From contig CAIIXF020000004.1 in NCBI GenBank assembly GCA_903813345.2, positions 22,321,985 through 22,385,984 on the forward strand: a stretch of 64,000 nucleotides of DNA, read 5' to 3'. The position numbers and the translations under genes were made by a program. Shown piece after piece: positions 6,484-63,697 of this stretch. This DNA comes from Owenia fusiformis (Eukaryota > Annelida > Polychaeta > Sabellida > Oweniidae). Position 1 is the first letter of the stretch, and every line of letters starts with the position of its first letter. The notes below the pieces were generated by a model. That model did not search any database and was not told the origin of the DNA. It saw only the letters and a program-made list of their open reading frames with translations.

Positions 6484-6556
6484 AGCTTCTCTCTAAAATT
6501 TGAATGAAGTGTCTGATTTTCTTGCATTTCTCTTTTTTAAAACATGGCCACCTTGT
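6484..6556 (+). repeat. Family A copy with internal deletion
   Basis: The first ~50 bases of the family (CTCTCTAAAATTTGAATGAAG to TTGCATTTCT) are joined directly to its last ~25 bases (TTTTAAAACATGGCCACCTTG). Confidence 0.65.
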
Positions 6557-6667
6557 CCAATTTTATGGCATTTCTAAACAATTCTAGCAGGGATTATCAA
6601 AGAAATTCCATTTGCCTATTGATTAAATTACCTCTTCCCTATGGCCTAATTTCCTGAAAAAGTCACG

Positions 6668-6830
6668 GTGGTCAATAATGTTACAGTTTTGAAATGCAAA
6701 ATAGAGTGGAAAAGGGTGGAATTAGCAAGGAATAAAGGAAACAGGCACGTAGGGAACACTCTAAATTATATAGAAATGCAAGAAAATCAGACACTTCATT
6801 CAAATTCTAGAGAGAAATTGTGCAGGATAT
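6668..6830 (-). repeat. Interspersed family A copy, reverse
   Basis: Reverse-oriented and nearly complete: TTTTGAAATGCAAAATAGAG at its left, TTCAAATTCTAGAGAG at its right. Any reading frame here is repeat, not gene. Confidence 0.75.
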
Positions 6831-8317
6831 CAGAGAAAAGTGTTGAGAAATTTATGACAAAAATACAAGTAGTAATATTGTACATTCTATTACAGGAAGA
6901 AACTCGCTTTTAAATGAGTTAAATCAATCTTTTGAAATAAAAGGAGTATTCAATGCTATATGCTATAAGCAGGATTTTCATAAATTGCAGATGTTACATT
7001 CCTAATCAACAACATCTGGCTGCAGCTGTGGATTTATCAACCAACTTTTGCCAACCTTTAAGCTTACATAGAGACCTGATCCCTCTGGCAATTTTTTCTA
7101 TCTTCTAAAATTATTTCATACAAAAAAAATGTTGAACTACAAAGTATTAAGAAAATTGCCATGTGGAGATTAGTTAGTTTAGTTCTTTAAGAAACAATAC
7201 AATAGTACAAAGATTGCATTATTTTCTCAAAATCTAATTATTACCTAATATCCCTGAGGTATTTTTAGTATGTTTTTTAGGGCTTAATTTAATAATTCAT
7301 TCTGCAAATCTAATCTCGATTTCTTCCTTTGAAAACTAGAAAGCTATGAAGAAGTATATTCCGAATGTGTGTATAACCTGCAATCACTGAAACATTAAAG
7401 ACCAAGTATAGGGTACACAATGTAGACTTTTGTCAATAATGAATATATTCATAAATCAAATTGACCTAGTTTTAAATTTGCATATTGTTTATTAATAACC
7501 AAGGTATTATATTGCTTAACAATCAAACTTCAATTTTAGCTTCATTGCCTAATACACTCCTTAAAAAAGTTAAGGATCAGTGGTTTTCCTCATAGGTTTA
7601 TATGTTAACCCCCATATTTGTTTGAACGATTATTTTCTAAGCGTGGAACAAAACATTTTTTGAAAGTATATTCCTTAATAAAATATATTGATCTTAATTT
7701 TTTGTATCTACTTCATGGTTGCATAGTTCCTTGTAAGGTAAAAAAAGTATAAGATGAAAATCAATAAAAAGTAAAGTCAAACTGACTCTTGTGCTTTAGT
7801 TTATCTATTCCTGTCATTTGCAGGATTAATAGTAAGAGATGTACTTATGCTTCTTCTAGAAGCATTATTAACTATGATTACAGGGTATAATTTAGTTTTT
7901 TTGAGCACAAAGCTAGTTTTAATAGAATGTTAAAGAAATAAATGCCAGATCATTAGTAAATAGAAAATTTAAGATGCAAATAAAAATGGCTTTTTTCTAT
8001 AATTGTGACCTTTTTATAAATAATCAATTTTTTCAGTATGGCTTTAATTAACTTGACATTTAAATATAAATCTAGGTTTGAATAATATAATGCCATAAAA
8101 ACTGACCATGTTAAAATGGCAATTCACCTTTGAGAAAATATAGAATAATATATTGATAAGACTGTCAATTAAAAATTACAAAATCGATTATGGACAACTT
8201 TACTGTCAAATTATAAATGCAAATATCTCAGTTTTGATACATAATGCATCATTTTTACGTCATAAATGCTTAAATAGATCAAGGCAGGTCTGATATACGA
8301 GATCTCCAGTTCATCAA
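6831..8317. other. AT-rich DNA, nothing recognised
   Basis: No open frame of note, no clear inverted ends and no tandem array were seen on either strand. Confidence 0.5.
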
Positions 8318-8462
8318 TATGGGTCAATAATTGACCTGGTCATCATTTACAGGAAGCAATATTCTAACTGGTTTTTATTTATATGGAGAAATATCTCAAC
8401 TGGTCATTGTTTACATGGGTCAATATCTGAACTGGCTATTATTCATATGGGCCAATATCACA
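8318..8462. repeat. ~37 bp degenerate tandem repeat
   Basis: Four units of the form ATGGGTCAATATCTGAACTGG plus TCATTATTTAT are visible; the short plus-strand frame through it is a by-product. Confidence 0.65.
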
Positions 8463-8744
8463 ATTCTGTTTAAAACCCATTTGTGTGTGTTACATCTATT
8501 TTTACATATAAAAGATAAGTTATTGATATGATTACAGTTAGGATCAAGAGAAATATGAATTATTTCATTCGGGTACTTTAAAAAAATAATCAAGTGTGTG
8601 AAAGCCAGGATTTAATTTTCGGGAAAGGCCTTAGCACTTGAATCTAGCTATTTTTAGCATTATGATGTCTACCGATAGCTTATTCTTGTCTTTCTAAGAA
8701 AACATGTAAAATCAATAGATGGCATCAATATGCCAATAATGCCA

Positions 8745-23536: not shown

Positions 23537-23705
23537 TGTCCGTCTGCTTATGTTTTTACAACCTGTTCTCTTTAAAATTTGAATGAAGTGTCTGTTTTTT
23601 TTGCATTTCTATACAATTCAGAGTGTTGACTACATGCCTGTCTATTTTATTCCTTGCTGATTCCACTCTTTTTCACTCTATTTTGCATTTTAAAACATGA
23701 CCTTT
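23537..23705 (+). repeat. Family A copy with 5' CCGTCTGCT end
   Basis: Starts GTCCGTCTGCTTATG and runs to TTTTAAAACATGACC. Confidence 0.75.
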
Positions 23706-46339: not shown

Positions 46340-46865
46340 TCGTGGCTCCTGCAGCTAGTAGGGGCATAAACATCCCAGCTGCAGCTAATAGGGGCATAAA
46401 CACCACAGCTGCAGCTTATAGGGGCATAAACATCATAGCTGCAGCTAGTATGGGCATAAATATCACAGCTGCAACTAATAGTGGCATGCATGAACATCAT
46501 ATCTGCAGCTAAAAGGGGCATAAACACCACAGCTACAGCTAATAGGGGCATAAACATCGCAGCTGCAGCTAATAGGGGCATAAACACCACATCTACAGCT
46601 AATAGGGGCATAAACACCACATCTACAGCTAATAGGGGCATAAACATCACGACTGCAGCTAAAAGGGGCATAAACACCACAGCTGCAGCTAATAGGGGCA
46701 TAAACATCATGGCTGCAGCTAAAAGGGGCATAAACACCACAGCTGCAGCTAAAAGGGGCATAAACACCACAGCTGCAGCTAAAAGGGGCATAAACACCAC
46801 AGCTGCAGCTAAAAGGGGCATAATCATTACAGCTGCAGCTAAAAGGGGCATAGAGATAACAGCTA
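46340..46865. repeat. 30 bp CAGCTGCAGCTAATAGGGG minisatellite
   Basis: About 17 copies of ACAGCTGCAGCTAATAGGGG plus CATAAACACC, with AAAAGGGG replacing AATAGGGG in the right half. The 30 bp unit is a multiple of 3 and lacks stops in several frames, so frames of 130-172 codons exist on both strands. They are alanine/cysteine-rich period artefacts. Confidence 0.9.
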
Positions 46866-49144: not shown

Positions 49145-49300
49145 GTTTGTCTGCCCTTGGTTTTTTCTTATCTATCTCTTTAATATTTGAATAAAGTGAA
49201 TGATTTTCTTGCATTTCTATATAATTTATAGTGTTTACTACATGCCTGTTCACTTTATTTCTTGTTTATTCCACTCCTTTCCACTTTGTCATTTTTGTGA
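49145..49300 (+). repeat. Family A copy at the start of duplication unit 1
   Basis: TTGTCTGCCCTTGG to CCACTTTGTCATTTTTGTGA. Its tail continues directly into DNA that is duplicated at 55240 onward, so the segmental duplication begins inside this repeat. Confidence 0.7.
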
Positions 49301-49679
49301 TGGATTTCAGACTGATGAGTTGCACATTTTTGGTAACATATGTAACAATTTAGCATGTTCTAAGGTTATTCCAAGTAGGGAGTGAAACTCAAAATGCATT
49401 CAACAGATATATTTTTTTCAAAATAAGTATTAGATAATTCAAAAATATAAAATCAGCTATAAAAGTCAGAGAGTGGTATAGATATTTGATATTGAAAAAG
49501 GGCACTTTGAGCTATACGAATGAGACAAATAGAGAATAAATGAGATGAAATTAATTAGTTAAATCATTGGGAATCACTATTTGGAATGATAATTTGAGGA
49601 ATTCTACATCCAACACTTGAGTAGATCAACTTAATTTGCTCTTCATTCATCCAGTTCATTAAAATATCAGAGTTTCCTT

Positions 49680-50235
49680 GTAGATTTGTATTATTCATTG
49701 CATGGATGGTTGAGCTTAAGTGGTGTTATGCATTGCGGCATTTGTTGTTGAGACAATTGATGGCATGCATTACTGCATTTATAGTTGAGCAATGCATCGA
49801 TTGTTGAGCTCATGAATTGCTGCATTGACAATTGGGCTCAAGTGATGTCATGCATTGCTGCATTGATTGTTGAACCTTATTGATGTCATGCATTGCTGCA
49901 TTGATTGTTGAACCTTATTGATGTCATGCATTGCTGCATTGATTGTTGAACCTTATTGATGTCATGCATTGCTGCATTGATTGTTGAACCTTATTGATGT
50001 CATGCATTGCTGCATTGATTGTTGAACCTTATTGATGTCATGCATTGCTGCATTGATTGTTGAACCTTATTGATGTCATGCATTGCTGCATTGATTGTTG
50101 AACCTTATTGATGTCATGCATTGCTGCATTGATTGTTGAACCTTATTGATGTCATGCATTGCTGCATTGATTGTTGAACCTTATTGATATCATGCAATGC
50201 TGCATTAATAGTTGAACCTTAATGATGTCATGTAC
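49680..50235. repeat. 38 bp satellite GTTGAACCTTATTGATGTCA
   Basis: About 13 units of GTTGAACCTTATTGATGTCA plus TGCATTGCTGCATTGATT. Roughly eight central units are identical, showing very recent expansion. Unit 2 carries a shorter, more diverged version (58440-59130). Confidence 0.9.
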
Positions 50236-50837
50236 CAAACTTAAAAAAGATTAGTTATATCAGAGTATAGTTCACTTGTGTCCAACTGAGTAATCAGGGT
50301 CACCATTTTATATATTTTCATATATATTATATTGCTTTTGATTTCAAAGGTAAATTCACATTGATAAACCAAACAAGTTTCCTCTTCGAAATATGAAACA
50401 TGTTTCTACATTAAAATCGTTCCAATTATTGAGGAAATTATTTGAAAAAAATTAGAGATAAAAAAATGAAAAAAGATCATATGTCATGCTTAATGTCATT
50501 ACACTGTCAACATTTCATCTTCAATTGATATATTTGTTGGATTATTTACAAAATGAACTCATTCATCATTTCGAATGATAATTATTGCATCTTAAGAAAA
50601 AACAAAAACAGTTAATTCTGTATATCCAATGATGTCTCTCATCTGAACACCTCTCTATGTGAAGTGAACATATTTTATTGTTTCAATATTTCCAATCTGC
50701 TATAGATTTTTATGTAAAAATACTTATGCCATACAGTAACCTACATATTAAGAAACATTGAAATGTGAACACCTGCCAATCTGAACACTTTTGGCAGGTA
50801 CAAAAATGTGTTCTGATTATACAGGTTTTACTAGTAC

Positions 50838-51130
50838 AATAATGTCATTTCTAAGGGCAATATTTCACTCTATTGCTCGCAGAAATGACGTTATTAGTAT
50901 TATTACCACCGTTAACGACCAGGGCTGAAATAGCAAGAAAATCTTACGCAATGAACAATATCTAATTTCCCGGGAAAAATTGCCGGTCCAGAATATATTC
51001 TAGACCGGTCCATGACTCCATATGGACCACCACTATGACGTCACACATTTCTCAGGTCGATATAGTAAAATGAACGCCTTCTAAACTAGCACTAAAACCC
51101 CTAGAACTGGCCCGGCAAGGTGGTAATAAT
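50838..51130. mobile_element. Nested fold-back insertion specific to unit 1
   Basis: A 58 bp hairpin (AATAATGTCATTTCT at 50838 pairs with AGAAATGACGTTATT at 50881-50895) is followed by a segment with 12 bp perfect inverted ends ATTATTACCACC (50899-50910) and GGTGGTAATAAT (51119-51130). This second segment contains another hairpin around AGAATATATTCT (50998-51009). The paralogous place in unit 2 (about 59520-59540) lacks it all. Confidence 0.6.
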
Positions 51131-51199
51131 GTAGTTTTCATTTCTTGTACTTAGTGATCATCCACATAGAACAAATGGTAGTATTTGAATGTTAATCAA

Positions 51200-51576
51200 T
51201 AGAGGTGTCATGGATACCATATTTTGTTCCGATCCTCGGAATTATGCCCTCGGAAAGGAAAACAGAACACAAATTGAGAATTTCGGTTCGGTTGCGGAAC
51301 AAGAACATTTTACCCTTTCACAACTTTTGGCCCTCAAATCGCCACAAAACAGCATTTTCTTTCAATATGTTGCACCAAAAGAGGTTCATTCTTTTCACTC
51401 CTTCTCATTGAAGAGTTTTAAAGAGCGTTTCGCTACCAAATAGACCTAGATGATCAACTTATTTTAATCTTATACATGCAGTCACTCTGTTCGGAACCAT
51501 TCCCAAATTGTTCCGTTCCGAAGCAAAATGTTCCGAACCTAACCATTCAGATTTTTTTTGTTCCGTGACATCTCTA
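51200..51576. mobile_element. 377 bp hAT-type MITE with TTAATCAA duplication
   Basis: The ends TAGAGGTGTCATGGA and, complemented, TAGAGATGTCACGGA match at 13 of 15 bases. The 8 bp TTAATCAA lies on both sides (51192-51199 and 51577-51584), diagnostic of hAT. Unit 2 has the uninterrupted site GTTAACCTATTACTTTTAC at about 59570. The element's right part and the flank are then repeated once more (51610-51908). Confidence 0.9.
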
Positions 51577-51908
51577 TTAATCAATTACTTTTACATTCAA
51601 ATTCAAATTCATTTTACCCTTTCACAACTTTTGGCCCTCAAATCGCCACAAAACAGCATTTTCTTTCAATATGTTGCACCAAAAGAGGTTCATTCTTTTC
51701 ACTCCTTCTCATTGAAGAGTTTTAAAGAGCGTTTCGCTACCAAATAGACCTAGATGATCAACTTATTTTAATCTTATACATGCAGTCACTCTGTTCGGAA
51801 CCATTCCCAAATTGTTCCGTTCCGAAGCAAAATGTTCCGAACCTAACCATTCAGATTTTTTTTGTTCCGTGACATCTCTATTAATCAATTACTTTTACAT
51901 TCAAATTC
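51306..51908. repeat. 304 bp tandem duplication across the hAT MITE end
   Basis: Two near-identical copies (51306-51609, 51610-51908) begin CATTTTACCCTTTCACAACT and end ACATTCAAATTC. Each contains the element's right end, the target duplication and its flank, so the duplication followed the insertion and is recent. Confidence 0.9.
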
Positions 51909-52697
51909 CATATTTTACTTGACAACAGATACACCACAATGTGCAGTATCAGGCAGTTAATGAAAAGAAAATAATAAATATGAATAAAAATATTTTTTAT
52001 AGGGTTCTCACTAAATTCTCCGGGGTCTAATGTCTTTAGACCCCTTGCTCTAGAGTCAAATAGCTTTTCCGGAGTCTAAAGTGTTTTCCAGAGTCTAATT
52101 TTACATTTTTGTCACATTATTTGTGGTTAAACTCTTGAGAAAATACATAAAACTGGATACAAACAAGGAATAGGAAGTCAGAAACCTTTTAGAAATGTAT
52201 ATTGTGCTATTGTGAAGATAATCATTAGTAGTATTTTGAAAGTATACTAATATGATATCTCTGATCTCACATGGGGGGAGGAGTAGTCAAAATCCAGGGT
52301 CTAAAAATTTCCTGGTAACTTTTTTTGTACACACACAAATTAAGTTTATTCCAATTTTAACATGTTACATATAATCTTATACAATTTGACGCAAAGCATA
52401 TATTGTAGTTCAAGGATCAAACTTTATCATACTATCTAAATAATGAAACATTTTTTGTGTGTGTTTTATTTTGTTTTATTCCTTGCTTATTCCACTCTTT
52501 TCAAATCTATTTTACATTTTAAACATGACATCCATCACATTTTGGCCTTCAAGATCACTTATACGAGTCTATTTTTTAATAATCTTATCACTTTTCAATT
52601 AATCATTAACATATTTCACAAGAAATCTAATTAACTTCAATTAATTTTGGTAGTTGGTCAAAGTTTAAGTGTTGATTCATTCGAATTAGCACATAAA
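51909..52697. other. 5' flank of cGLR gene 1 with insertion
   Basis: About 52000-52440 (GGGGTCTAATG and GGAGTCTAA motifs) is absent from the matching part of unit 2. A family A tail at 52463-52546, followed by TTCAAGATCACTTATAC, is shared with unit 2 (59705-59790) and marks the conserved proximal flank. No promoter element can be assigned with confidence. Confidence 0.5.
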
Positions 52698-52793
52698 ATG
52701 GCGTATGCAACAAGGAATGCAGGAAAACTATCAAAATTGACAGAACCACCTTTGGGCAAAATATATTCATTAAAATACCTGAAAAGTGATTGA
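52698..52793 (+). CDS. In-frame upstream ORF, relic of the ancestral start
   Basis: ATG in good context (TAAAATGG) opens 31 codons, MAYATRNAGKLSKLTEPPLG then KIYSLKYLKSD, closed by TGA. The first 11 residues are nearly identical to the start of gene 2 (MAYATRDAGKL), and the rest resembles a decayed N-terminal repeat unit. It is in the same frame as gene 1 (ATG 52809), separated only by the TGA and five codons. It could act as a regulatory upstream ORF, a readthrough leader, or merely a relic. Confidence 0.5.
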   Translation: MAYATRNAGKLSKLTEPPLGKIYSLKYLKSD

Positions 52794-52808
52794 TTGAACA
52801 TATATATA

Positions 52809-54593
52809 ATGGGAAACACAAAGTCAAAATCCGACATAAAAATGGGTAACATGAGTTCAAAACCTGTGTTTTCTGGACAATATCCTTTGGGCAAGCACAC
52901 TACATCTACAATTCATTCTGAGTCAAAACAGGACATTCTTCAAGCAACTGTGTTCACTGGACCATATCCTTTGGGCAAGCACACTACTTCTACAATTCAT
53001 TCTGAGTCAAAACAGGACATTCTTCAAGCAACTGTGTTCACTGGACCATATCCTTTGGGCAAGCACACTACTTCTACAATTCATTCTGAGTCAAAACAAG
53101 ACATTCTTCAAGCAACTAAAGACATTAATGAAGCAGTCGGAGATACTCCATTGTCATTCAAAAACATAACAGAGGCAGCTAAGAGAATTATTGAAATAAC
53201 AGACATTCCAACACCAAGCAATTCAACAGATGAAACACCGACACCGAGACTCACAAACTTTGTTAAATATGTCTCATACCATGTTGACATTAGGAATAGA
53301 TACACTTCTAAAGAACTTAAACTCCAGACATCTTATGTTGAAAAACTGGTTCAGTCCATCTGTAGAAATGCTGGTATAAAAAATCAAACCTTGAAAGTGA
53401 ATGAGATCATGCGTAGAGGAAGCTTCTATGATGGAACTAAGATAGTAGAGCCTAATGAGTATGATTTCCTTGCAATTCTAGCAATGTTTGATAGTAAAGT
53501 AATTGAGGTGAAGGATGTGAGTGAGGAGTGTAGGTTCACCAGACAAGGGGGGTACTATCACATTAAAGTCAAGCGAAAGTCTTTAAAGCATTCCCTACCT
53601 GATTACTGCATAGAGGAGCATGAAGGTGAAAACTACATTCAAATATATCTTGTTAAATCTCTGCTATTGGACACTGTAGTGGAGACTCTTCAGAACATGA
53701 GTGATGTCAAGTTTATTGGATTTAGAGATCATGAAAGAGATACCACTACTAAATACAACAAGGGTGACATAAGTGTACATATGGGGGACTATGGATGCCA
53801 CTTACATGGTCCAAGTATATGGCTACGTGTTGGTGGACCAGTGTGTACTGTAGATATTGATCTCTGCTTTTGTGTAGAGCATAAGCTACACAAGCTAGGG
53901 AGAAGTGTCCTGCTTATTGAGGACTATACTAGTGATAATTGTCAAGTGAGTCATTGGAAGGAGTCTGTGGTAGATCCTACTGATGACAACAAACACCAAC
54001 TAACACATCCCCACCATCAACTATTGTTACTTTTCAAGTATGCAGCTTATCTACCTAATAAGGTGGATATCAAAGACTACCGTCCTCCTTCATCTTATGC
54101 TCTGAGAACATTACTGTTGCACCACCAGCAGCAATGCCAGTCTACTCAAGTAGGGGAGTGCTTCATGGATGCTGTGAAGTACATGTGTTATGACACTGAT
54201 ACGATTGATGATCATCAGAATACATTTAGGATACGACAAAGAGGGCTGAATGACAAGACAATACCAGACATAATCTACCCACAGAGAGACATCAGACTTT
54301 ATAATGTATACTCGCTGCCCACACCTGCAATGTTACTCTGGCTGATACAACATGTTCGACATACCAGTGACTGTAGCTGGTGGGAGAGACTATTAGATCC
54401 AACATTCATCAGCAATGTTACTGAGACTGAGTTACTACACTCTTTAGTAACTGAAGTAAGGAGTGTAGACAGTGAGCATGTATGGGATGCATTGGAAAGA
54501 AGTAATATAACCAGAGAACCCCAAATCATCAAGTTACAATGGAAGCACCAGGATGACACTGAAACAATATTAGAGTTTGAGATCAAGTTGTAG
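52809..54593 (+). CDS. cGAS-like receptor (Mab-21 nucleotidyltransferase), gene 1
   Basis: A single-exon gene of 594 residues. By family, cGLRs bind double-stranded RNA or another ligand and make a cyclic dinucleotide that activates STING; ligand and product here are unknown. Residues 1-19 are MGNTKSKSDIKMGNMSSKP, with a candidate N-myristoylation motif (G2, S6). Residues 20-103 are three 28-residue repeats (VFTGPYPLGKHTTS...). From about 147 comes the nucleotidyltransferase core, with spine helix, RRGSFYDGTK (G204, S205), NEYDF (E217, D219) and VDIDL (D349). The Mab-21 C-lobe follows (HPHHQLLLLFKYA, SYALRTLLLHHQQQC). No H-x5-CC-x6-C zinc ribbon of vertebrate cGAS is seen. The ATG at 52809 was chosen (ATAATGG); the frame extends upstream only through TTG to the TGA at 52791. 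Its closest relative is gene 2, 5.4 kb downstream. All catalytic acids are present, so activity is expected. Confidence 0.88.
   Translation: MGNTKSKSDIKMGNMSSKPVFSGQYPLGKHTTSTIHSESKQDILQATVFTGPYPLGKHTTSTIHSESKQDILQATVFTGPYPLGKHTTSTIHSESKQDILQATKDINEAVGDTPLSFKNITEAAKRIIEITDIPTPSNSTDETPTPRLTNFVKYVSYHVDIRNRYTSKELKLQTSYVEKLVQSICRNAGIKNQTLKVNEIMRRGSFYDGTKIVEPNEYDFLAILAMFDSKVIEVKDVSEECRFTRQGGYYHIKVKRKSLKHSLPDYCIEEHEGENYIQIYLVKSLLLDTVVETLQNMSDVKFIGFRDHERDTTTKYNKGDISVHMGDYGCHLHGPSIWLRVGGPVCTVDIDLCFCVEHKLHKLGRSVLLIEDYTSDNCQVSHWKESVVDPTDDNKHQLTHPHHQLLLLFKYAAYLPNKVDIKDYRPPSSYALRTLLLHHQQQCQSTQVGECFMDAVKYMCYDTDTIDDHQNTFRIRQRGLNDKTIPDIIYPQRDIRLYNVYSLPTPAMLLWLIQHVRHTSDCSWWERLLDPTFISNVTETELLHSLVTEVRSVDSEHVWDALERSNITREPQIIKLQWKHQDDTETILEFEIKL
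52866..53117 (+). repeat. 84 bp coding repeat x3 in gene 1
   Basis: Units at 52866-52949, 52950-53033 and 53034-53117 encode 28 residues each (VFTGPYPLGKHTTST, IHSESKQDILQAT). Units 2 and 3 differ at very few bases; unit 1 has SGQ in place of TGP. Gene 2 has only one short counterpart (IFTGPYPQHTQTN). The unit is rich in S/T and likely unstructured. Confidence 0.9.
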
Positions 54594-55212
54594 TATATTC
54601 AAGTAAGTGTGACAGTTCTCTCCACACATGGTTCAAATACTTTGAACTGATATCACGCAGGTATACTTGAAACATTCTCACAAGTTAATATGTAAAGTAA
54701 ATATGTTAAATTGATATGTAATCATATTGCAAGTCTAAAAAAGATTAATAAAAATAAATATGGAAATTCAAATTCTAGAAGGTTAAGTTGATAAATAAAT
54801 ATCAGTGATGAGCAAAACAAAAGAATTAGAAAATAAGTAACACTTTTCTACACCATTTCCAAAATAGAATATAAATGACATATGTACTATGCTATGCTCA
54901 ACACATGCACCCAAATAATCACCTTATAAAGAGTGACACCCCTGCCCACTAAAAGGTGAAATCATTTCATATATCTCAATGCAATCAACTTTATTTTTCA
55001 GTCTATGACTATTAAACAACAACAAAGAGGCACAACAACAGGTGTAAGAGTTTGAAGAGCTCTATCTCTAGTTGTGGACTATACTATCTATAGTAAAACC
55101 TGTCTAAGTATAAACTTTACAGGTCTCGCTGTATATATGAGGGGTTTCATAACTATCAAAGAATGTGTACATGTATGATTCAATAATGACATTTGAGAAC
55201 CCAACAAATCAC
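54594..55212 (+). other. 3' flank of gene 1, shared with gene 2
   Basis: Strongly similar to 61500-62440 (ACATGGTTCAAATACTT, ATATCACGCAGGTATACTTG, CACCTTATA...GTGACACCCCT, ACAACAAAGAGGCAC), with a ~300 bp gap relative to unit 2. It ends at GAACCCAACAAATCAC, the duplication junction. Confidence 0.75.
54747..54758 (+). terminator. Polyadenylation signals of gene 1
   Basis: Two overlapping-register AATAAA hexamers occur ~154 bases after the stop; gene 2 has an AATAAA at the corresponding place. Confidence 0.55.
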
Positions 55213-55439
55213 TCTATTTTGCATTTTAAAACATGACTACCTTGTCATTTTTGTGATGGATTTCAGACTGATGAGCTGCACATTTTTGGTAACATATGTA
55301 ACAATTTAGCATGTTCTAAGGTTATTCCAAGTAGGGAGTGAAACTCAAAACGCATCCAACAGATATATTTTTTTTAAAAAAAGAATTAGACAATTCAAAA
55401 ATGTAAAATCTTCTATAAAAGTCAGAGAGTGGTATAGAT

Positions 55440-56891
55440 ATCTTATATTGAAAAGGGTACTTCTGAGCTACAAAAAGAGAATAAATGAGATGAAATTAAT
55501 TATTAGTTTAATCATTAGAATCACTGTTAGAGGGTAATATGGATATCTGATAGAGAACAGGGTATATTTGAGCTAGACAAATGAGACAAATAGAGAATAA
55601 ATGAGATGAAATTAATTAGTCAAATCACTAGGAATCATTCTTAGAATGATAACTTGAGGAATTCTAAATCCAATTAGACACTTGAGTGGAATCAGTCTTA
55701 GTTAGAGGGTAATATGGATATTTGATATTGAAAAAGGGTACTTTTGAGCTATACAAATGAGACAAATAGAGAATAAATGAGATGAAATTAATTAGTTAAA
55801 TCATTAGGAATCAATCTTACTTAGAGGGTAATATGGATATCTGATAGTGAACAGGGTATATTTGAGCTAGACAAATGAGACAAATAGAGAATAAATGAGA
55901 TGAAATTAATTAGTTAAATCATTAGGAATCAATCTTACTTAGAGGGTAATATGGATATCTGATAGTGAACAGGGTATATTTGAGCTAGACAAATGAGACA
56001 AATAGAGAATAAATGAGATGAAATTAATTAGTTAAATCATTAGGAATCACTCTTACTTAGAGGGTAATATAGATATCTGATATTGAAACAGGGTACTTTT
56101 AGCTAGACAAATGAGACAAATAGAGAATAAATGAGATGTAAGTTAATTAGTTAAATCATTAGGAATCAATCTTACTTAGAGGGTAATATAAATATCTTGT
56201 AAGGAACAGGGTACTTTTAGCTAGACAAATGAGACAAATAGAGAATAAATGTGATGATATCAATTAGTTAAATCATTAGGAATCACTCTTACTTAGAGGG
56301 TAATATAGATATCTGATATTGAAACAGGGTACTTTTTAGCTAGACAAATGAGACAAATGGAGAATAAATGTGATGATATCAATTAGTTAAATCATTAGGA
56401 ATCACTCTTACTTAGAGGGTAATATAGATATCTGATATTGAAACAGGGTACTTTTAGCTAGACAAATGAGACAAATGGAGAATAAATGTGATGATATCAA
56501 TTAGTTAAATCATTAGGAATCACTCTTACTTAGAGGGTAATATAGATATCTGATATTGAAACAGGGTACTTTTAGCTAGACAAATGAGACAAATAGAGAA
56601 TAAATGTGATGATATCAATTAGTTAAATCATTAGGAATCACTCTTACTTAGAGGGTAATATAGATATCTTGTAAGGAACAGGGTACTTTTTAGCTATACA
56701 AATGAGACAAATAGAGAATAAATGTGATGGTATCAATTAGTTAAATCATTAGGAATCACTCTTACTTAGAGGGTAATATAGATATCTGATATTGAAACAG
56801 GGTACTTTTAGCTAGACAAATGAGACAAATAGAGAATAAATGAGATGTAAGTTAATTAGTTAAATCATTAGGAATCACTCTTACTTAGAGG
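55440..56891. repeat. ~118 bp satellite, about 12 copies
   Basis: The unit contains TTAGAGGGTAATATAGATAT, CTGATATTGAAACAGGGTAC, TTTTAGCTAGACAAATGAGA, CAAATAGAGAATAAATG and AATTAGTTAAATCATTAGGA. Unit 1 has only one diverged copy (about 49470-49640). Two more copies resume after the hAT element (58106-58330). Confidence 0.9.
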
Positions 56892-56899
56892 GTAATATA

Positions 56900-58097
56900 T
56901 AGAGAAGGGTCGGTCACGGTTCGGTTCGGTTCTGTACGATTCTCCGCTCTTGTCTCTCGGTTCGGTCGGTTCTTCAATCATATACTTAATAAGGTGGGCC
57001 TCATAAATTGCAATTGTTGCCACAAATATGGCAACATAAAAAGGTGTTTCTCTTTTATTTTGTATTATTGGGGGATATAATTTTATTTCAATCTTATAAA
57101 TGATCAATATGGAATGACGATAGCTGATAATCATTGAATATTTATGGAATTATATAACTAGAATTGAACTACTGTATTTGTAGGTGGCTATCAACAAGTC
57201 GCTTGCCCCATATTAGATGGGAGGGATTCCTTTTTAAACTGGGTCTGGTTGGGTAAGACCTTTCAATATGTTTCCTCACGACAGATATGTTTCCTGAAAA
57301 CTTAAATTATATGGATAGCACAGATGTCCTTCAGTTGGGAATAACAGTACAGTGGGCTAGGGGGGTGTTTACCCAAATTCTCAACCTGACTTAGGACCTG
57401 GGGTAGGACACATGAAAAAGTGTAAATATCATTCATAAAAATGTTACTATGAGTGGGTAATAGAAGGCAGTTCCAAGATAGGGAATGAATTGAAGTCTAA
57501 AAAAGATCGCAGTCTTAATTTTTAATAAAAAAAATTTACAAAAAGTTTCAATCACAAAAATTGGAAACCTGCAGCGTATTTCAATGTCTTGTGCACAACC
57601 GACATAGGGTAGACGTATTCTCATCGTAGAAACCGAATACTTCCAAGCATCCAACTTAGGCATCGCGGGGAAAGGCTCTATGACGGTTTTACTAGCTCTT
57701 TGCCTAAGACTTCGAAAACTCTTCCGCCATTTTTAAACACAAGTGTTTCCGCGCGAAATTAATTCATGCTCCCAAATAGAATTATGTTCCCTCGAGACGT
57801 GGAAGCACAATGTAATATCCAAGGAGACGATTTTATTACCCTATGGATCGTTTAAAGTTGTTCAATTGTCGTTTAAATGGTACTTTCATTCGCTATTTAG
57901 ATGAAATAGAGCTGTAATTATTTGCGCAAAAAATTGGTATTCATGTTACACTGCACGAAAATAAAGTATTTCCCCGGGAATGATGGAACCGTTCTGGACT
58001 CAGTTCTTGGTATGGTGATCAGACGGTCCCAGTAGAACCGTGAGGCCAAAAACCGCGGTTAATCGAATCGAACCGAACCGTAACCGACCCTACTCTA
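56900..58097. mobile_element. 1.2 kb hAT-type element with GTAATATA duplication
   Basis: The terminal repeats TAGAGAAGGGTCGGTCACGG and, complemented, TAGAGTAGGGTCGGTTACGG match at 18 of 20 bases and continue into GTTCGGTTCG repeats. The 8 bp GTAATATA is duplicated on both sides (56892-56899, 58098-58105). It interrupts the satellite. No hAT transposase remains. The interior is GC- and CpG-richer and contains an exon-like frame (57569-57663, minus) and an AAAATGGCGG start context, possibly captured gene sequence. Confidence 0.9.
57569..57663 (-). pseudogene. Exon-like frame inside the hAT element
   Basis: On the minus strand an ATG opens MPKLDAWKYSVSTMRIRLPY then VGCAQDIEIRC, ending at a possible donor CAG|GTTTCC. 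A pyrimidine-rich acceptor (ATCTTTTTTAG) follows 72 bases later, at 57496. It could be a captured host exon or a decayed transposon exon. No domain was recognised. Confidence 0.25.
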
Positions 58098-58439
58098 GTA
58101 ATATAGATATCTGATATTGAAACAGGGTACTTTTTAGCTAGACAAATGAGACAAGCAGGGAATAAATAAGATGAAATTAATTACATAGTTGAATCATTAG
58201 GAATCAGTCTTAGTTAGAGGGTAATATAGATATCTGATTTTGAAACAGGGTACTTTTGAGCTATACAAATGAGACAAATAGAGAATAAATGAGATGAAAT
58301 TAATTAGTCAAATCACTAGGAATCATTCTTAGAATGATAATTTGAGGAATTCTAAATCCAATTAGTCACTTGAGTAGATCAACTCAATTTGCTCTACATT
58401 CATCCAGTTCATTAAAATATTAGAGTTTCCACGTAGATT

Positions 58440-59130
58440 TGTATTATTCATTGCATTGATGGTTGAGCTTAAGTTATTGTTATGCATTGCAGCATTTGTT
58501 GTTGAGCTTAATTGATGTCATTTGCTGCATTAATTATTGAGCTTAATTGATGTCATATATTGCTGCATCAATTGTTGAGCTTAATTGATGTCATGTATTG
58601 CTGCATTAATTGTTGAGCTTAATATCCTAGATGCAAGTAGAAATAATCTTGATTTGCGTCATTAAAAATTCACAATTCAGTCAAACTGTTGTCATATTTG
58701 GAGTCTACATATAAAATTACATCTAAAAATGTGGTTTTGAAAAGAGTTTATCAACTTTGAAAATTTAATTGTCTTTGATATAACTATCGCATACATAAGG
58801 GTAATATGAAAAGTGAACCACTAAAACTGATACATATTCAAGTTTAAGGGAATTTTGTAATACCCTGCCATGTTATTTCCCCCGAATCAGCCACCTGGTG
58901 TCGAAACTGGTAACTACCTACTCGCATTTGAGTAATTAATGTAATGTATTGCTGCATTAATTGTTGAGCTTAATTGATGTCATTTGCTGCATTAATTATT
59001 GAGCTTAATTGATGCAATGTATTGCTGCATTAGTTGTTGGGCTTAATTGATGTCATGTATTGCTGTATTAATTGTTGGGCTTAATTGATGCCATGTATTG
59101 CTGCATTTGTTGTTTAGCTTAATTGATATT
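58440..59130. repeat. 38 bp satellite, unit 2 version, interrupted by a MITE
   Basis: Diverged GTTGAGCTTAATTGATGTCA plus TGTATTGCTGCATTAATT units before and after the inserted MITE at 58626-58932; about nine units in all. Confidence 0.85.
58626..58932. mobile_element. 307 bp MITE, inverted relative of 1082-1510
   Basis: Ends CCTAGATGCAAGTAG and, complemented, CTCAAATGCGAGTAG. The interior shares AAAAATTCA, ACATCTAAAAATGTGGTTTT and GTAACTACCTACTCGCATTT with the complement of 1082-1510. About 120 bases of the larger copy are absent. Flanking TAA-like bases are ambiguous because the array is AT-rich. Confidence 0.75.
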
Positions 59131-59987
59131 GCACATCAAATGCATTTTCTCTTTAAAATATTAAACATGTTTCTCCATTAAAATTGTTCTACTATTGAAA
59201 CTATTTGGATAAAAAGAAACAAATAAAAAATGAAAAAATATCATATGCCATGCTCAATATCATTACACTGCCAACATTTCATCTTTAATTGATATATGTG
59301 TTGGATTATTTGTGAAATGAACTCATCATTTCAAATGACAATTATTGCACTTCAGAAAACAATTACTTGTACAGTAAAACATCTCAATGTGAACACTTTT
59401 TTAATCTCCCAGACTTCCATGTATAGAAACTGACATATGAAAAACTTGAAAGATGAACACCTGCCAATTTGAACACTTTTGGGTAGACCCAATGGTGTTC
59501 CGATTGGCAGGTTTTATGTTTTATGTATTATGCATTGTACTTAGTGATTATCCACATAGAACAAATCCTGTTAACCTATTACTTTTACATTCAAATTACA
59601 TATAGTGTGATGTTTGTATTTTACATTACAACAGACATACTACAATGTGTATTGTGTAGTATCAGGCAGTTAATGGAAAGAAAATAATAAATATGCATAA
59701 AAATACATTTCTAAGTCTTTTTTATTCCTTGTTAATTCCACACTATTTTGCATGACCGCCATGACATTTTTGCCTTCAAGATCACTTATACAAGAATACT
59801 ACTAAGATAAAAATAATGTCTATTGTCTTGTATTCTCTTATCACTTTTCAATTAATCATTAACATGATTTATAAAAAATCCAGTAAACTTCAATTTATTT
59901 TGTAATACAATGTATTCTATAGTTGAAGAGAAGTACCTGTATGAAGGTCAAGGTTTAGGGGTGGGTTCATTCAAAATAGAATACAAA
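59131..59987. other. 5' flank of cGLR gene 2
   Basis: Matches unit 1 proximal flank (TTGATATATGTGTTGGATTA, TCAGGCAGTTAATGGAAAG, TTCAAGATCACTTATAC). It retains the empty site of the unit 1 hAT MITE at about 59565-59585. A TATAAAAAA stretch lies ~115 bases before the chosen ATG. An upstream in-frame ATG (59910) would add 26 residues. Confidence 0.55.
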
Positions 59988-61499
59988 ATGGCGTATGCAA
60001 CAAGGGATGCTGGAAAATTACCAATATTTACTGGACCATATCCTCAACACACACAAACAAACACGAGGGACAAGCAAATTGAGAGGTTAACCAAGTTTGT
60101 AAATCATGTCTCTCATCATGTGGATGTTAGAAATAGATATTCACCCGAGAAACTCAAATTTCAAACATCTTACATTGAAAATGTGGTTCAGTCCATTTGT
60201 AAAGATGTTGGTATCAAGAATCCAGCCTTGATAGTGAATGAGATCATCCGAAGAGGGAGCTACTATGATGGAACCAAGATACTTCAGCCTAATGAGTATG
60301 ATTTCCTTGCGATTCTAGCCATGTTTGACAGTAAAGTCATTGAAGTGAAAGATGTGAGTGAGATGTGTAGTTTCACCGGAAAGGGGTACTATCATATTAA
60401 AGTAAAGCGCAAGTCTATAAAACATCCCCTCCCTGATAACTGCATAAAAGAGTATGAAGGCGATAGCTACATTCAAATAGATCTTGTTAAATCTCTGCTA
60501 TTGGACACTGTAGTGAAAACTCTTGAGAACATGAGTGATGTCAAGTTTATTGGATTTAAAGATCATAAAAGAGATACCAGTACTAAATACAACAAGGGTG
60601 ACATAAGTGTAAATGGGGGGAACAATGGAGGCCACTTACATGGTCCAAGTATAGGGCTACGTCTTGGTGGGCCAGTGTGTACTGTAGATATTGACCTTTG
60701 CTTTTGTGTCGAGCAGAAGGCACATAGGCTGGGGAGAAGTGTCCTGGTTATTGAAGAAAAGGCACCAATAGTTGATAAATGCCAAGTGAGTCATTGGATG
60801 GAGTCTTTGGTAGATCCTCCTGATGACAACAAACACCAACTAACACATCCCCATCATCAACTATTGTTGCTGTTCAAGTATGCCGCTCATCTACTTGATA
60901 ACATGGCTATTAATAAGCTCTACCCCCCTCCTTCATCTCATGCTCTGAGAACATTACTGTTGCGCCACCAGCAGCAGTGCCAGTCTACTCAAGTAGGGGA
61001 ATGTTTCATGGAGGCTGTGCAGTACTTGTTTGAGGACACTGATACAATTGATTATCATCAGAATACATTTAGGATACTACAAAGATGGCTGAATGACAAG
61101 ACAATACCCGACATAATCTATCCACTAAGGAAGATCGGACTATATGATAATACCTCACTGCCCACACCTGTAATGTTACTCTGGCTGATACAACATGTGA
61201 GACATACCAGTGACTGTAGCTGGTGGGAGAGACTATTAGATCCAACATTTATACAACTTATTCATTATACCAGTGACTGTAGCTGGTGGGTGAGACTATT
61301 AGATCCAACATTCATCAGCAATGTTACTGAGACTGAGATACTACACTCTTTAGTAACTGACATGAGGAGTGTAGATGAGAAGCATGTTTTTGCTGCAAGG
61401 ATAAGAAATGAAGAAACAGGAGAACCTCAAATCATCAAGTTACAATGGAAGCACCAGGATGAAACTGAAACAGTATTAGAGTTTGAGATCAAGGAGTAG
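59988..61499 (+). CDS. cGAS-like receptor (Mab-21 nucleotidyltransferase), gene 2
   Basis: A single-exon gene of 503 residues from ATG 59988 (ACAAAATGG); an in-frame ATG at 59910 would give 529. The 59988 start is preferred for its context and because MAYATR-AGKL is kept in the unit 1 relic. N-terminal residues 1-40 include one IFTGPYP motif. The catalytic signature is complete: RRGSYYDGTK (G90, S91), NEYDF (E103, D105) and VDIDL (D234). The Mab-21 C-lobe follows (HPHHQLLLLFKYA, SHALRTLLLRHQQQC). No zinc ribbon and no myristoylation motif at either start. A 21-residue segment with SDCSWW and RLLDPTFI occurs twice near residues 406-442. The protein is very similar to gene 1 across the core. 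The expected role is a ligand-activated cyclic dinucleotide synthase upstream of STING; ligand and product are not known. Confidence 0.88.
   Translation: MAYATRDAGKLPIFTGPYPQHTQTNTRDKQIERLTKFVNHVSHHVDVRNRYSPEKLKFQTSYIENVVQSICKDVGIKNPALIVNEIIRRGSYYDGTKILQPNEYDFLAILAMFDSKVIEVKDVSEMCSFTGKGYYHIKVKRKSIKHPLPDNCIKEYEGDSYIQIDLVKSLLLDTVVKTLENMSDVKFIGFKDHKRDTSTKYNKGDISVNGGNNGGHLHGPSIGLRLGGPVCTVDIDLCFCVEQKAHRLGRSVLVIEEKAPIVDKCQVSHWMESLVDPPDDNKHQLTHPHHQLLLLFKYAAHLLDNMAINKLYPPPSSHALRTLLLRHQQQCQSTQVGECFMEAVQYLFEDTDTIDYHQNTFRILQRWLNDKTIPDIIYPLRKIGLYDNTSLPTPVMLLWLIQHVRHTSDCSWWERLLDPTFIQLIHYTSDCSWWVRLLDPTFISNVTETEILHSLVTDMRSVDEKHVFAARIRNEETGEPQIIKLQWKHQDETETVLEFEIKE
61205..61312 (+). repeat. Coding duplication in gene 2 (63 bp insertion)
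   Basis: TACCAGTGACTGTAGCTGGT through GATCCAACATT at 61205-61250 recurs at 61268-61312, spaced by 18 other bases. It adds 21 residues relative to gene 1 without shifting the frame. Confidence 0.9.
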
Positions 61500-61649
61500 A
61501 ATACTCAAGTAAGTGACAGTACTCTCCATACATGGTTCAAATACTTAGAACTTATATCACGCAGGTATACTTGAAACATCCTCACAAGTTTATATTAAAG
61601 TAAATGCATTGAGTTGATATGTTATCACATTGCAAGTCTAAAAAGAATC

Positions 61650-61655
61650 AATAAA
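61650..61655 (+). terminator. Polyadenylation signal of gene 2
   Basis: AATAAA 150 bases after the stop, in the block homologous to the gene 1 signals. Confidence 0.5.
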
Positions 61656-61989
61656 AAAAATATGCAAATTCAAATTCTAGAAGGTTTAGTTGATAAATAA
61701 ATTATAATATCAGTGATAAACAAAACAAATGAATTGAGGAAATTAATGACACTTTGTTTTCTATACCATTTCCAAAATAAAATGTAAATGACATATGCTC
61801 CACACCTGTACCCAAATAATCACCTTATATCAAGTGACACCCCTCCCACTAAAAAAAGGTGAAATCATTTCTTATATACCAATGCGATCAACTTTATTTT
61901 TCAGTATATAGATGACTATTAAACAACAACAAAGAGGCACTACAAGAGGTGTAAGAGTTTGAAGAGCTGTATCTCTAGTTGCGGACTAT

Positions 61990-62345
61990 ACTATCTATAG
62001 TAAAACCTGTCTAAGTGGAACACCTTTGTTATCTCCTAAATGTGTGTACTTGGGACGTGTTCCACTCATAGAGGCTCATTCAACATAAAAGTCAGTTTGT
62101 CTTGTGACTCTTAAAAGTGTTCTACTTGTTCCACATATAGAGGCTCATTCAACATAAAAGTCAGTTTGTCTAAGGACTCTTAAAAGTGTTCTACTTTGGA
62201 TAGAGGTTCATTTTACATTAAGTCTTAGGAACTCTGAAGTGTTTCACTAACAGATATGCTCCACTATAAAAAGGGTAATCCTAATTTTCACTCTTTGGGA
62301 CTCTGAAAATTGTTTAACAGAGGTGTTCTACTAGAAGAGGTATTC
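61990..62345. repeat. AAAACCTGTCTAAGTGG-type repeat with 70 bp duplication
   Basis: A unit with ATAGAGGCTCATTCAACATA, AAAGTCAGTTTGTCT and GACTCTTAAAAGTGTTCTAC occurs twice, followed by weaker copies. Unit 1 has a deletion that joins CCTGTCTAAGTA to TTTACAGGTCTCG. Confidence 0.7.
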
Positions 62346-62440
62346 CATTTTACAGGTCTCGATGTATATATGAGGGGTGTCATAACTTTCACATAATGTG
62401 CAAGATTCAATGATGGCATTTGAGAACCCAACAGATCACA

Positions 62441-63427
62441 ACTGTGGGGTCCCATTATCATACTCTTTGTCAGAGGGTGGTAATATTACTTACTGATGAT
62501 CTCAGGGTACTAAGTCAACTCATAGAATAGTCATAATACTAGCACTCTGACTACCTTTACTATTTTAATTTCAATAAATTACATGTCCATGCAAATGTGT
62601 TATAATTGAAAATGAAGAAAATCTGCAAACATTGTCATCTGAACACTTGATATTGTAAATAAATACATGGATTGTAAATAAATACACGAATTGTAAATAA
62701 ATACACAGATTGTAAATAAATACACAGATTTGTATTTGCATATAAAATATTTGTTTTCTATGTTTGTATATGTGTGATAATAACATACTATTTTAACATT
62801 ATTGCCAATGATATAGCTGCAGCGTTACATACAGTATATGACAATAACATCATCATCAATCATATATGAAATAAAACCCATGTCTAAGACACTGTTTCAT
62901 ATCATTTCTCTCTTATGGTATCAACAATCAGGGAGATCAAGTTGTTAAATCAGCCTTATCGACGTAGCATGACTCAATTATCAAGTGTGTGTCTCACTGA
63001 ATGAATGTTTTCGAGACACTGATGATAATTGGCAAGGTGTGTGCCTCACTGAAAGAATGTGTCTGAGACACCAATAATAAGGTACGTATGATAAACAATA
63101 TTTCACCTGAAAATCAAAAATGGACTCTAAATATTTACCAAGCATGTCTTAATATGATCAGTTCTTCATTTTCATCTGCAGCCCTAGTCTTTATTGGGCA
63201 TTTAACAAGCAGTGCTACCATCTATTCCGTAGCAGTGAAACAACCTTTTATTACCAGATGATTTTTTAATCAGATTATCGTAAAAAGAGAATATCAGTCC
63301 AGCTGGAAAAACAACATGCTATAAATTATATTACATCATTGATTCTTCCTGTCTTTAATCCTACCATTAATCACTGGCATATAAGCTTAGATGTCACATT
63401 GACATTTGTATCAATCATTCTAAATTG
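62441..63427. other. Right flank of the duplication; small repeats
   Basis: No longer homologous to unit 1. It has four ~20 bp TTGTAAATAAATACACAGA units (about 62653-62728) and a twofold ~65 bp duplication around 62975-63075 (AGTGTGTGTCTCACTGAATG / GGTGTGTGCCTCACTGAAAG). No gene. Confidence 0.6.
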
Positions 63428-63697
63428 GCCGTCTGCTCATGCTTATTTCACTCAATTTCTCTCTAAAATTTGAATGAAGTGTCTGATTTTCTTGTATTTC
63501 TATACAATTTAGAGAATTGACTACATGCCTGATCACTTTATTCCTTGCTGATTTCACTCGATTTCGCTCTAAATTTGAATGAAGTGTCTGATTTTCTTGC
63601 ATTCTTTTATAATTTAGAGTGTCAACTACATGTCTGTTTATTTTATTCCTTGCTGATTCCACTCTTTTCCACTATATTTTCCATTTGAAATCATGAC
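63428..63697 (+). repeat. Family A tandem pair with 5' GCCGTCTGCT end
   Basis: A copy from GGCCGTCTGCTCATGC runs to GATTTCACTC, where it merges into the head of a second copy that runs to the tail (GAAATCATGACAAC). This shows how the similar ends give head-to-tail copies. Confidence 0.85.

Follow-up and report, generated by a model that had tools for sequence, protein, structure and literature searches.

A tandem duplication of two cGAS-superfamily genes in the annelid Owenia fusiformis, with a probable swap of the N-terminus in one copy

Introduction

Passages of PMC9980059 describe animal cGAS-like receptors (cGLRs) as proteins with a Mab-21-type nucleotidyltransferase core that carries a GS motif and an acidic triad, as members of large expansions, and as occurring together with several STINGs in one genome; the coral Stylophora pistillata, with 42 cGLRs and 7 STINGs, is an example given there. 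Here we analyze a stretch of 64,000 nucleotides of the genome of the annelid Owenia fusiformis (contig CAIIXF020000004.1, abbreviated C4, positions 22321985-22385984, forward strand; the whole stretch is called 'the window' and is numbered from its first nucleotide) that contains two genes, gene 1 and gene 2, of a family that is alike in all of these respects. Expansions of cGAS-like sensors are already known, and the question here is how new copies gain new properties.

In other immune gene families, tandem duplication goes together with gene conversion, and head-to-tail copies exchange segments. The Owenia locus is alike in having head-to-tail copies that appear to exchange segments. Genes 1 and 2 form a natural pair, in which the genomic unit is the same, the catalytic cores are similar, and the fronts are different. 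If the front sets the location of the sensor, the pair would test whether location alone alters what an innate sensor detects; passages of PMC13372824 argue for an effect of location on detection for human OAS1 and OAS2. Human OAS2, which according to the same passages needs N-myristoylation for its localization and antiviral action, works in a like manner, as a nucleotidyltransferase of immunity that is anchored by a lipid at its N-terminus, and is unlike gene 1 in that it belongs to another superfamily (OAS) and in that the anchor of gene 1 is only predicted.

Our best explanation of the locus as a whole, comprising duplication, a microhomology joint, conversion, and the roles of both proteins, is one to which we assign a probability of about 0.6. 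An ancestral segment with one cGLR-superfamily gene was duplicated head to tail. Where the units meet, the right end of the segment would have joined the inside of a repeat at its left edge (family A) by way of a 3-4 bp microhomology. At a later time, sequence related to a paralog at C4:23.301 Mb (g23.301m) would have replaced, most likely by gene conversion, the 5' end of gene 1 (~52795 to 53361-53607). With this swap, gene 1 would have given up a short N-terminus and gained a long one, headed by a myristoylation-like signal; part of this N-terminal extension now occurs in three in-frame copies. The gene 1 protein would then reside at membranes, and the gene 2 protein in the cytosol.

Results and discussion

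Genes 1 and 2 lie in head-to-tail duplicated units

The two units, the two genes, and the sequence at which the units start are as follows.

49278-55212, plus strand: duplication unit 1, defined by blocks collinear with unit 2; its start sequence is matched twice genome-wide
55213-62440, plus strand: duplication unit 2, defined on the same basis; its end block, 62349-62439, pairs with 55116-55212
52809-54593, plus strand: gene 1, a Mab-21/cGAS-superfamily open reading frame (ORF) of 594 aa with a long-form N-terminus, from the ORF list and Pfam
59910-61499, plus strand: gene 2, a Mab-21/cGAS-superfamily ORF of 529 aa, with a short-form start, MAYATRDAGK, at 59988
49286-49470, plus strand: unit-start sequence of 185 bp, with two candidates in a genome search, both scored, which are units 1 and 2 and are 95% identical

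Comparison of the two units shows homology in ordered blocks, all on a single (plus) strand, that span both units. The block pairs (unit 1/unit 2) are 49283-49581/55239-55528, 49464-49873/58212-58616, 50378-50600/59145-59359, 51878-51992/59568-59705, 52524-52748/59751-60038, 53253-54409/60090-61252, 54594-55109/61500-62016, and 55116-55212/62349-62439, and the collinear blocks reach flanks that are not repeats. The genome search (498 Mb, 525 contigs) skips very common words, so that its copy counts are valid at that sensitivity; at that sensitivity the unit-start query matches units 1 and 2 only. With the 3' flank of gene 1 (54594-55212) as query, there are five candidates, all scored, of which the one full-length match is unit 2, in two pieces, and the other four are short pieces adjoining three neighbouring paralogs. 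Queries 50240-52800 and 50236-51170 return, among the matches listed, themselves and a high-copy repeat; even the copy in unit 2 is not among these matches, and the two queries are uninformative on further copies of the unit. Because the unit-start and 3'-flank searches both point to the two units, the duplication is not repeat noise. We conclude that the locus is an old tandem segmental duplication of two cGAS-superfamily genes, an event of an ordinary kind, and that an earlier sequence-only reading, which had described head-to-tail duplicated units matching block by block, was correct in this respect.

The units differ in length (5.9 kb for unit 1 and 7.2 kb for unit 2) because of later changes, namely a 118-bp array in unit 2 and a high-copy insert and a 304-bp repeat in unit 1. 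The repeats and inserts concerned are the following.

55688-56899, plus strand: 118-bp tandem array of 10 copies, expanded in unit 2, from the tandem-repeat listing
49843-50232, plus strand: 38-bp minisatellite of unit 1, with unit 2 counterparts at 58452-58623 and 58933-59127
51200-51579, plus strand: transposon-like high-copy insert of unit 1, ~380 bp, with no equivalent seen in the matching part of unit 2; it overlaps a perfect 304-bp tandem repeat of unit 1 (51306-51908)

A high-copy repeat of ~300 bp also lies at 50828-51133 of the window. Between the gene 1 and gene 2 units, the flanks differ at 125/1207 positions (10.4%) in five blocks and at 238/1924 positions (12.4%) in all eight; the five-block total omits three of the eight non-coding blocks, which differ by 12-21%, and the test that uses it, described below, was repeated with all eight.

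Heterozygous assemblies can yield similar units in tandem, and the two units might in principle be two haplotypes laid end to end. We find this hardly credible for the present locus, in view of the 5-21% divergence by block, the unit-specific insertions, the expanded arrays, and the placement of both units on one contiguous 31.9-Mb scaffold.

The joint between the units points to microhomology

Two features define the edges at which the units meet.

49173-49285, plus strand: family A body, lacking its tail, at the left margin of unit 1; unit 1 starts inside this copy
55209-55256, plus strand: joint between the units, consisting of TCAC, which occurs both at the unit end and in some family A copies, followed by the family A tail

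The family A repeat measures ~110 bp and carries a tail of ~40 bp. Its body has 34 hits in the window (query included), covering 5.3% of the window, and 1622 first-look candidates genome-wide, 40 of which were scored. The junction, 55212/55213, is sharp: it separates the homologue of 62439, on the left, from the family A tail and, beyond that tail, the sequence homologous to the beginning of unit 1. The letters with which unit 1 ends (...AAATCAC) are fused directly to the family A tail (TCTATTTTGC...), which is matched at 23673, 34412, 16832, and other positions, and the end of unit 2 reads ...AGATCACAACTG. The sharp junction in a family A tail, and the start of unit 1 inside a family A copy, had both been remarked on from the letters alone, and both are seen.

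The mechanism that had been proposed from these two facts, recombination between family A copies, fares less well. An unequal crossover involving two copies of family A accounts for the presence of family A sequence both at the left edge of unit 1 and at the joint, and the abundance of the family, with its 34 hits, favours it. Crossing over of this kind, however, requires family A sequence on the right side of the segment as well, and no family A hit was obtained within 62000-63000, around the right end of unit 2, the next hits beginning near 63458. Since no family A hit lies at the end of unit 2, the partners at the joint had only CAC or TCAC in common, a microhomology of 3-4 bp. Furthermore, because family A body hits alone cover so much of the window, a left breakpoint that falls in family A is weak evidence. 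We consider crossing over between family A copies to be quite improbable; the joint appears to fit end joining or template switching better, unless the right end once bore a copy of family A that was later lost.

Both genes belong to the cGLR superfamily and depart from the strict cGLR motif

Genes 1 and 2 are each one uninterrupted ORF with start and stop. Pfam Mab-21 (PF03281) matches them at 41 and 38.3 bits, respectively, with a cut-off of 24.1, and matches 22 of 31 same-genome paralogs at expect values (E) up to 0.01; the 31 are those of 35 ORFs that entered our paralog alignment (without L001, L010, L012, and L031). A profile of the 31 paralogs finds cGAS structure 7ftn with E=2.2e-7, in an alignment around GS...ExD and again in the C-terminal lobe, and the 41 sequences listed by the profile search comprise cGAS (one a fusion), cGLR1, a Mab-21 domain protein, and chains named 'Uncharacterized protein'. 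The likeness to cGAS (structures such as 7ftn and 4k8v) extends over the GS/ExD and SSY..KT..GxCF regions; the alignments to structures stop short of the third acidic residue, D205, which is assigned by family conservation and not by structure. GS, ExD, and D205 are present in all 31 paralogs, and in gene 1 they lie as follows.

53418-53861, plus strand: active-site residues of gene 1 (GS 53418-53423; E 53457-53459; D 53463-53465; D 53859-53861), with coordinates derived from core residues 58, 59, 71, 73, and 205

The zinc thumb of vertebrate cGAS has paired cysteines. Neither core has a CC pair, and genes 1 and 2 are thus unlike cGAS in having no zinc thumb of that type.

The strict cGLR motif published in PMC9980059 is given, in the passage that defines it, as h[QT]GS with 50-90 residues to the third acidic residue, whereas in the Owenia family Q or T precedes GS in 1/31 paralogs (R in 27/31) and the acidic spacing is 119-150 in 31/31. 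A broader definition, in a passage of PMC10732462, takes the cGLR superfamily to be the clade with the Mab21 domain PF03281. Because the residue before GS and the acidic spacing depart from the strict motif, we file genes 1 and 2 under the cGLR superfamily and not under that motif. The sequence-only reading, which had called them two intronless cGLR genes, stands at the level of the superfamily and, for that part of 'intronless' that concerns the coding sequence, in the uninterrupted coding parts; it does not stand at the level of the strict motif. The strict published motif would miss a large clade with active-site residues that look intact.

The same two departures, in acidic spacing and in the arginine before GS, would also be in line with proteins that are Mab-21-like folds without cyclase activity and have structural or regulatory roles, and PMC9980059 states, in one passage, that it is unclear whether Mab21L1-related proteins produce nucleotide signals. 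We consider this unlikely. The presence of GS, ExD, and D205 in every one of 31 divergent paralogs suggests selection on catalysis, and the genome contains several STING-like loci. Both proteins are, as judged from these sequence features, probably active nucleotidyltransferases that make a nucleotide second messenger for a STING-like receptor of the same genome.

The catalytic cores of genes 1 and 2 are 78% identical. Our analyses of selection, phylogeny, and recombination covered at most 14 genes, g12_26.67 not being among them; in these analyses, the ratio of non-synonymous to synonymous divergence (dN/dS) between the cores of genes 1 and 2 is 0.39, at which the coding sequences look constrained. 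AlphaFold2, run with two sequences only, gave a predicted local distance difference test score (pLDDT) of 32.7 and a predicted template-modelling score (pTM) of 0.22. Gene 2 has, in addition, an internal duplication.

61203-61328, plus strand: 63-bp in-frame tandem duplication in gene 2; a similar one is present at the same site in the paralog at C4:28.846 Mb

The four copies of the 63-bp sequence in these two genes match at 45 to 53 of 63 nucleotides. Inheritance common to gene 2 and the C4:28.846 Mb paralog was considered for this duplication, and the nucleotide counts do not decide it.

The 5' end of gene 1 appears to have a history different from that of the rest of the unit

The proposed exchange concerns two features at and upstream of the start of gene 1.

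52795-53361, plus strand: proposed conversion tract, related to g23.301m; the right edge is possibly up to ~53607
52698-52793, plus strand: relic of a short-form start (MAYATRNAGK..., stop 52791-52793), in frame upstream of gene 1

The paralog g23.301m sits on the scaffold of gene 1, at a distance of 0.93 Mb. The N-terminal extension of gene 1 agrees with it at 197 of 209 aligned bases (94.3%), and the resemblance extends into the first 146 core bases (91.6% over 368 bp). The relic upstream of gene 1 is collinear with unit 2, as seen from a translation in three frames that was aligned to gene 2 and to paralogs, and g23.301m has a similar short-start relic. Over the whole core, gene 1 is 86.0-86.8% identical to each of four genes, namely gene 2, for which the value is lowest, and three other paralogs, and the synonymous distance is 0.316 between gene 1 and gene 2 and 0.222-0.231 between gene 1 and the three other paralogs.

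The excess of divergence between genes 1 and 2 lies in the first part of the core. At four-fold sites, genes 1 and 2 differ at 14 of 31 positions (45%) in core codons 1-120, significantly more than the flanks (Fisher test, p=1.3e-6 with five blocks and p=8.5e-6 with all eight), and at 15 of 95 positions in codons 121-446, where the comparison with the flanks gives p=0.12 and p=0.34; the two parts of the core differ from each other with p=0.0024. Tree topologies change in the same way. In core codons 1-119, the grouping of gene 1 with gene 2 is rejected by the approximately unbiased (AU) test (p=0.031), and gene 1 groups with g23.301m. In the rest of the core (11 genes, without the truncated g22.309m, g12_31.60, and g22.319m, as also in the fixed windows below), the grouping of gene 1 with g23.301m is rejected (p=0.008), and gene 1 groups with gene 2. 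A MaxChi-like test of gene 1 against the pair gene 2/g23.301m, one of 12 such tests on gene 1, places a break at codon 38 (p=0.00025, the floor for 4000 shuffles). The pairwise homoplasy index (PHI), run on 10 and on 6 of the 14 genes, gives p=0.027 for the 6 closest genes.

Several results weigh against conversion of gene 1. The split at codon 120 was chosen after the identity windows had been seen. Of six fixed windows of 75 codons, the first does not reject the grouping of gene 1 with gene 2 (AU 0.136); only the last does so (AU 0.047), and there a third paralog, g22.421m, is favoured instead. In the same windows, the grouping of gene 1 with g23.301m is rejected only in codons 151-225 (AU 0.0235). 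With 14 genes and 218 codons of the 3' stretch, gene 1 with gene 2 is the best grouping, and nothing is rejected. The mirror MaxChi-like test, of gene 2 against the pair gene 1/g23.301m, is not significant (p=0.49), nor is PHI on 10 genes (p=0.11), and the donor candidate, g23.301m, begins MEN, without glycine. In addition, gene 2 is fast-evolving in codons 1-119 (branch 0.148), and gene 1 looks closer in the 5' stretch to several distant paralogs than to gene 2, so that gene 2, or both genes, may be altered; an exchange in gene 2, or in both genes, is possible.

The long branch of gene 2 in codons 1-119, and the non-significant PHI result on 10 genes, would also be in line with a history with no conversion at all, in which the long N-terminus is ancestral and was lost by gene 2, and in which the remainder is due to rapid change at the 5' end of gene 2. 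That a long ancestor is possible is indicated by the C4:28.846 Mb paralog, which has a MAYA head plus a long extension. Loss alone, however, leaves unexplained why gene 1 and g23.301m are 92-94% identical there and less so elsewhere, does not fit the rejection of their grouping in the rest of the core, and would not lift four-fold divergence to 45% beside flanks at 10-12%. We rate loss without conversion as rather unlikely. We conclude that conversion of the gene 1 5' end is the best reading of these sequences, supported though not proven.

It had been suggested that the process of expansion is visible at this locus at sequence level. The event is not cleanly visible: the 5' third of gene 1 appears to have a history different from that of the rest of the unit, and the pair sits in a larger cluster with two neighbours broken by transposon-like inserts. 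Papers listed for cGLRs together with gene conversion are, judged by titles and abstract starts, not about cGLR evolution, and a swap of the front would, if confirmed, be new for the cGLR family.

Gene 1 starts with a predicted lipid anchor

The N-terminal extension of gene 1 has the following features.

52809-52865, plus strand: two myristoylation-like starts, MGNTKSKS at 52809 and, as a second candidate start at 52842, MGNMSSKP, from a Met-Gly scan judged by the general consensus
52864-53117, plus strand: 84-bp in-frame repeat, 3 copies with 97% matches, from the tandem-repeat listing

The consensus for N-myristoylation is a Met-Gly start with favourable residues at positions 3, 6, and 7. 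Gene 1 is predicted to conform to this consensus with both MGNTKSKS and MGNMSSKP, and MGNTKSKS is, by its sequence, likely to signal myristoylation. Met-Gly starts that precede the core occur in 7/35 ORFs, those nearest to the consensus being gene 1, g24.828 (MGNATSKQ), g24.918 (MGNTNSQL), and L028 (MGCSLSKS). The scan covered the sequence upstream of the first GS and listed no Met for 9/35 ORFs; read by eye, these nine have no Met-Gly start upstream of the core.

Beyond gene 1, then, there are paralogs with MGN or MGC starts or with multi-pass membrane tails (g24.828, L015). A tentative generalization, which we hold to be doubtful as a whole, is that, in this animal, cGLR paralogs swap N-terminal targeting modules by gene conversion, such that soluble and lipid- or membrane-anchored versions of a sensor core arise repeatedly; gene 1 would, if this generalization applied, be the converted, myristoylated version of its soluble tandem twin. 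The main text of PMC9980059 does not contain the word 'myristoyl'. In the passages of the OAS2 paper, the lipid is on OAS2, and we do not claim that a myristoylated cGLR is unreported.

Two paralogs have predicted membrane segments after the core. In L010 (g24.828; C4:24821001-24831000, ORF 6521-8602), a single ORF combines MGNATSKQ, close to the start, with a nucleotidyltransferase core that is followed by six predicted membrane segments; with an E limit of 1, this membrane tail has no match in Pfam. In L015 (C4:5490900-5493100, ORF 501-2201), a more distant paralog, the number of such predicted segments is three.

The pair belongs to a large family in a genome with several STING-like loci

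Translated searches (tblastn) of the genome give 113 matches, with the best candidates scored, corresponding to at least 93 loci, at least 19 of which are on C4. Most of the close clade lies on C4, where a local cluster spans 22.31-22.42 Mb and consists of two reversed genes on the left, the pair of the window, and a reversed gene and a partial copy on the right. The coding parts of the two reversed genes on the left, L001 and L002 (C4:22.309 and 22.319 Mb), are broken by inserts of 1069 and 1255 bp, respectively, which have terminal inverted repeats with TA adjoining and which we take to resemble elements of the Tc1/mariner type. The paralog L012 (C12:31596000-31605000) is interrupted by 1522 bp of satellite-like sequence, pieces of which are 94-96% identical to stretches of positions 1-673 of the window, a repeat also present on C12.

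The STING ligand-binding domain (PF15009) gives 25 exon matches with an E limit of 10, and 14 with a limit of 1e-3. At least eight loci combine two or more of these matches, the second match being weak in some of them. Clustered STING-like loci lie at C7:10.96-12.83 Mb, at C5:30.33 Mb, and on C346.

In viral contigs, two stretches fit a pattern, neither of which encodes a relative, and an Rfam scan (gathering threshold) and a tRNA scan of the window were empty. On C6, the annelid erythrocruorin linker domain has three matches above its cut-off, as suits an annelid. COX1 gave no match in the genome, so that the assembly probably lacks the mitochondrial genome. Positions 46349-46864 of the window are a 30-bp minisatellite of 17 copies that is open in several frames on both strands, and the ORFs in it are probably spurious.

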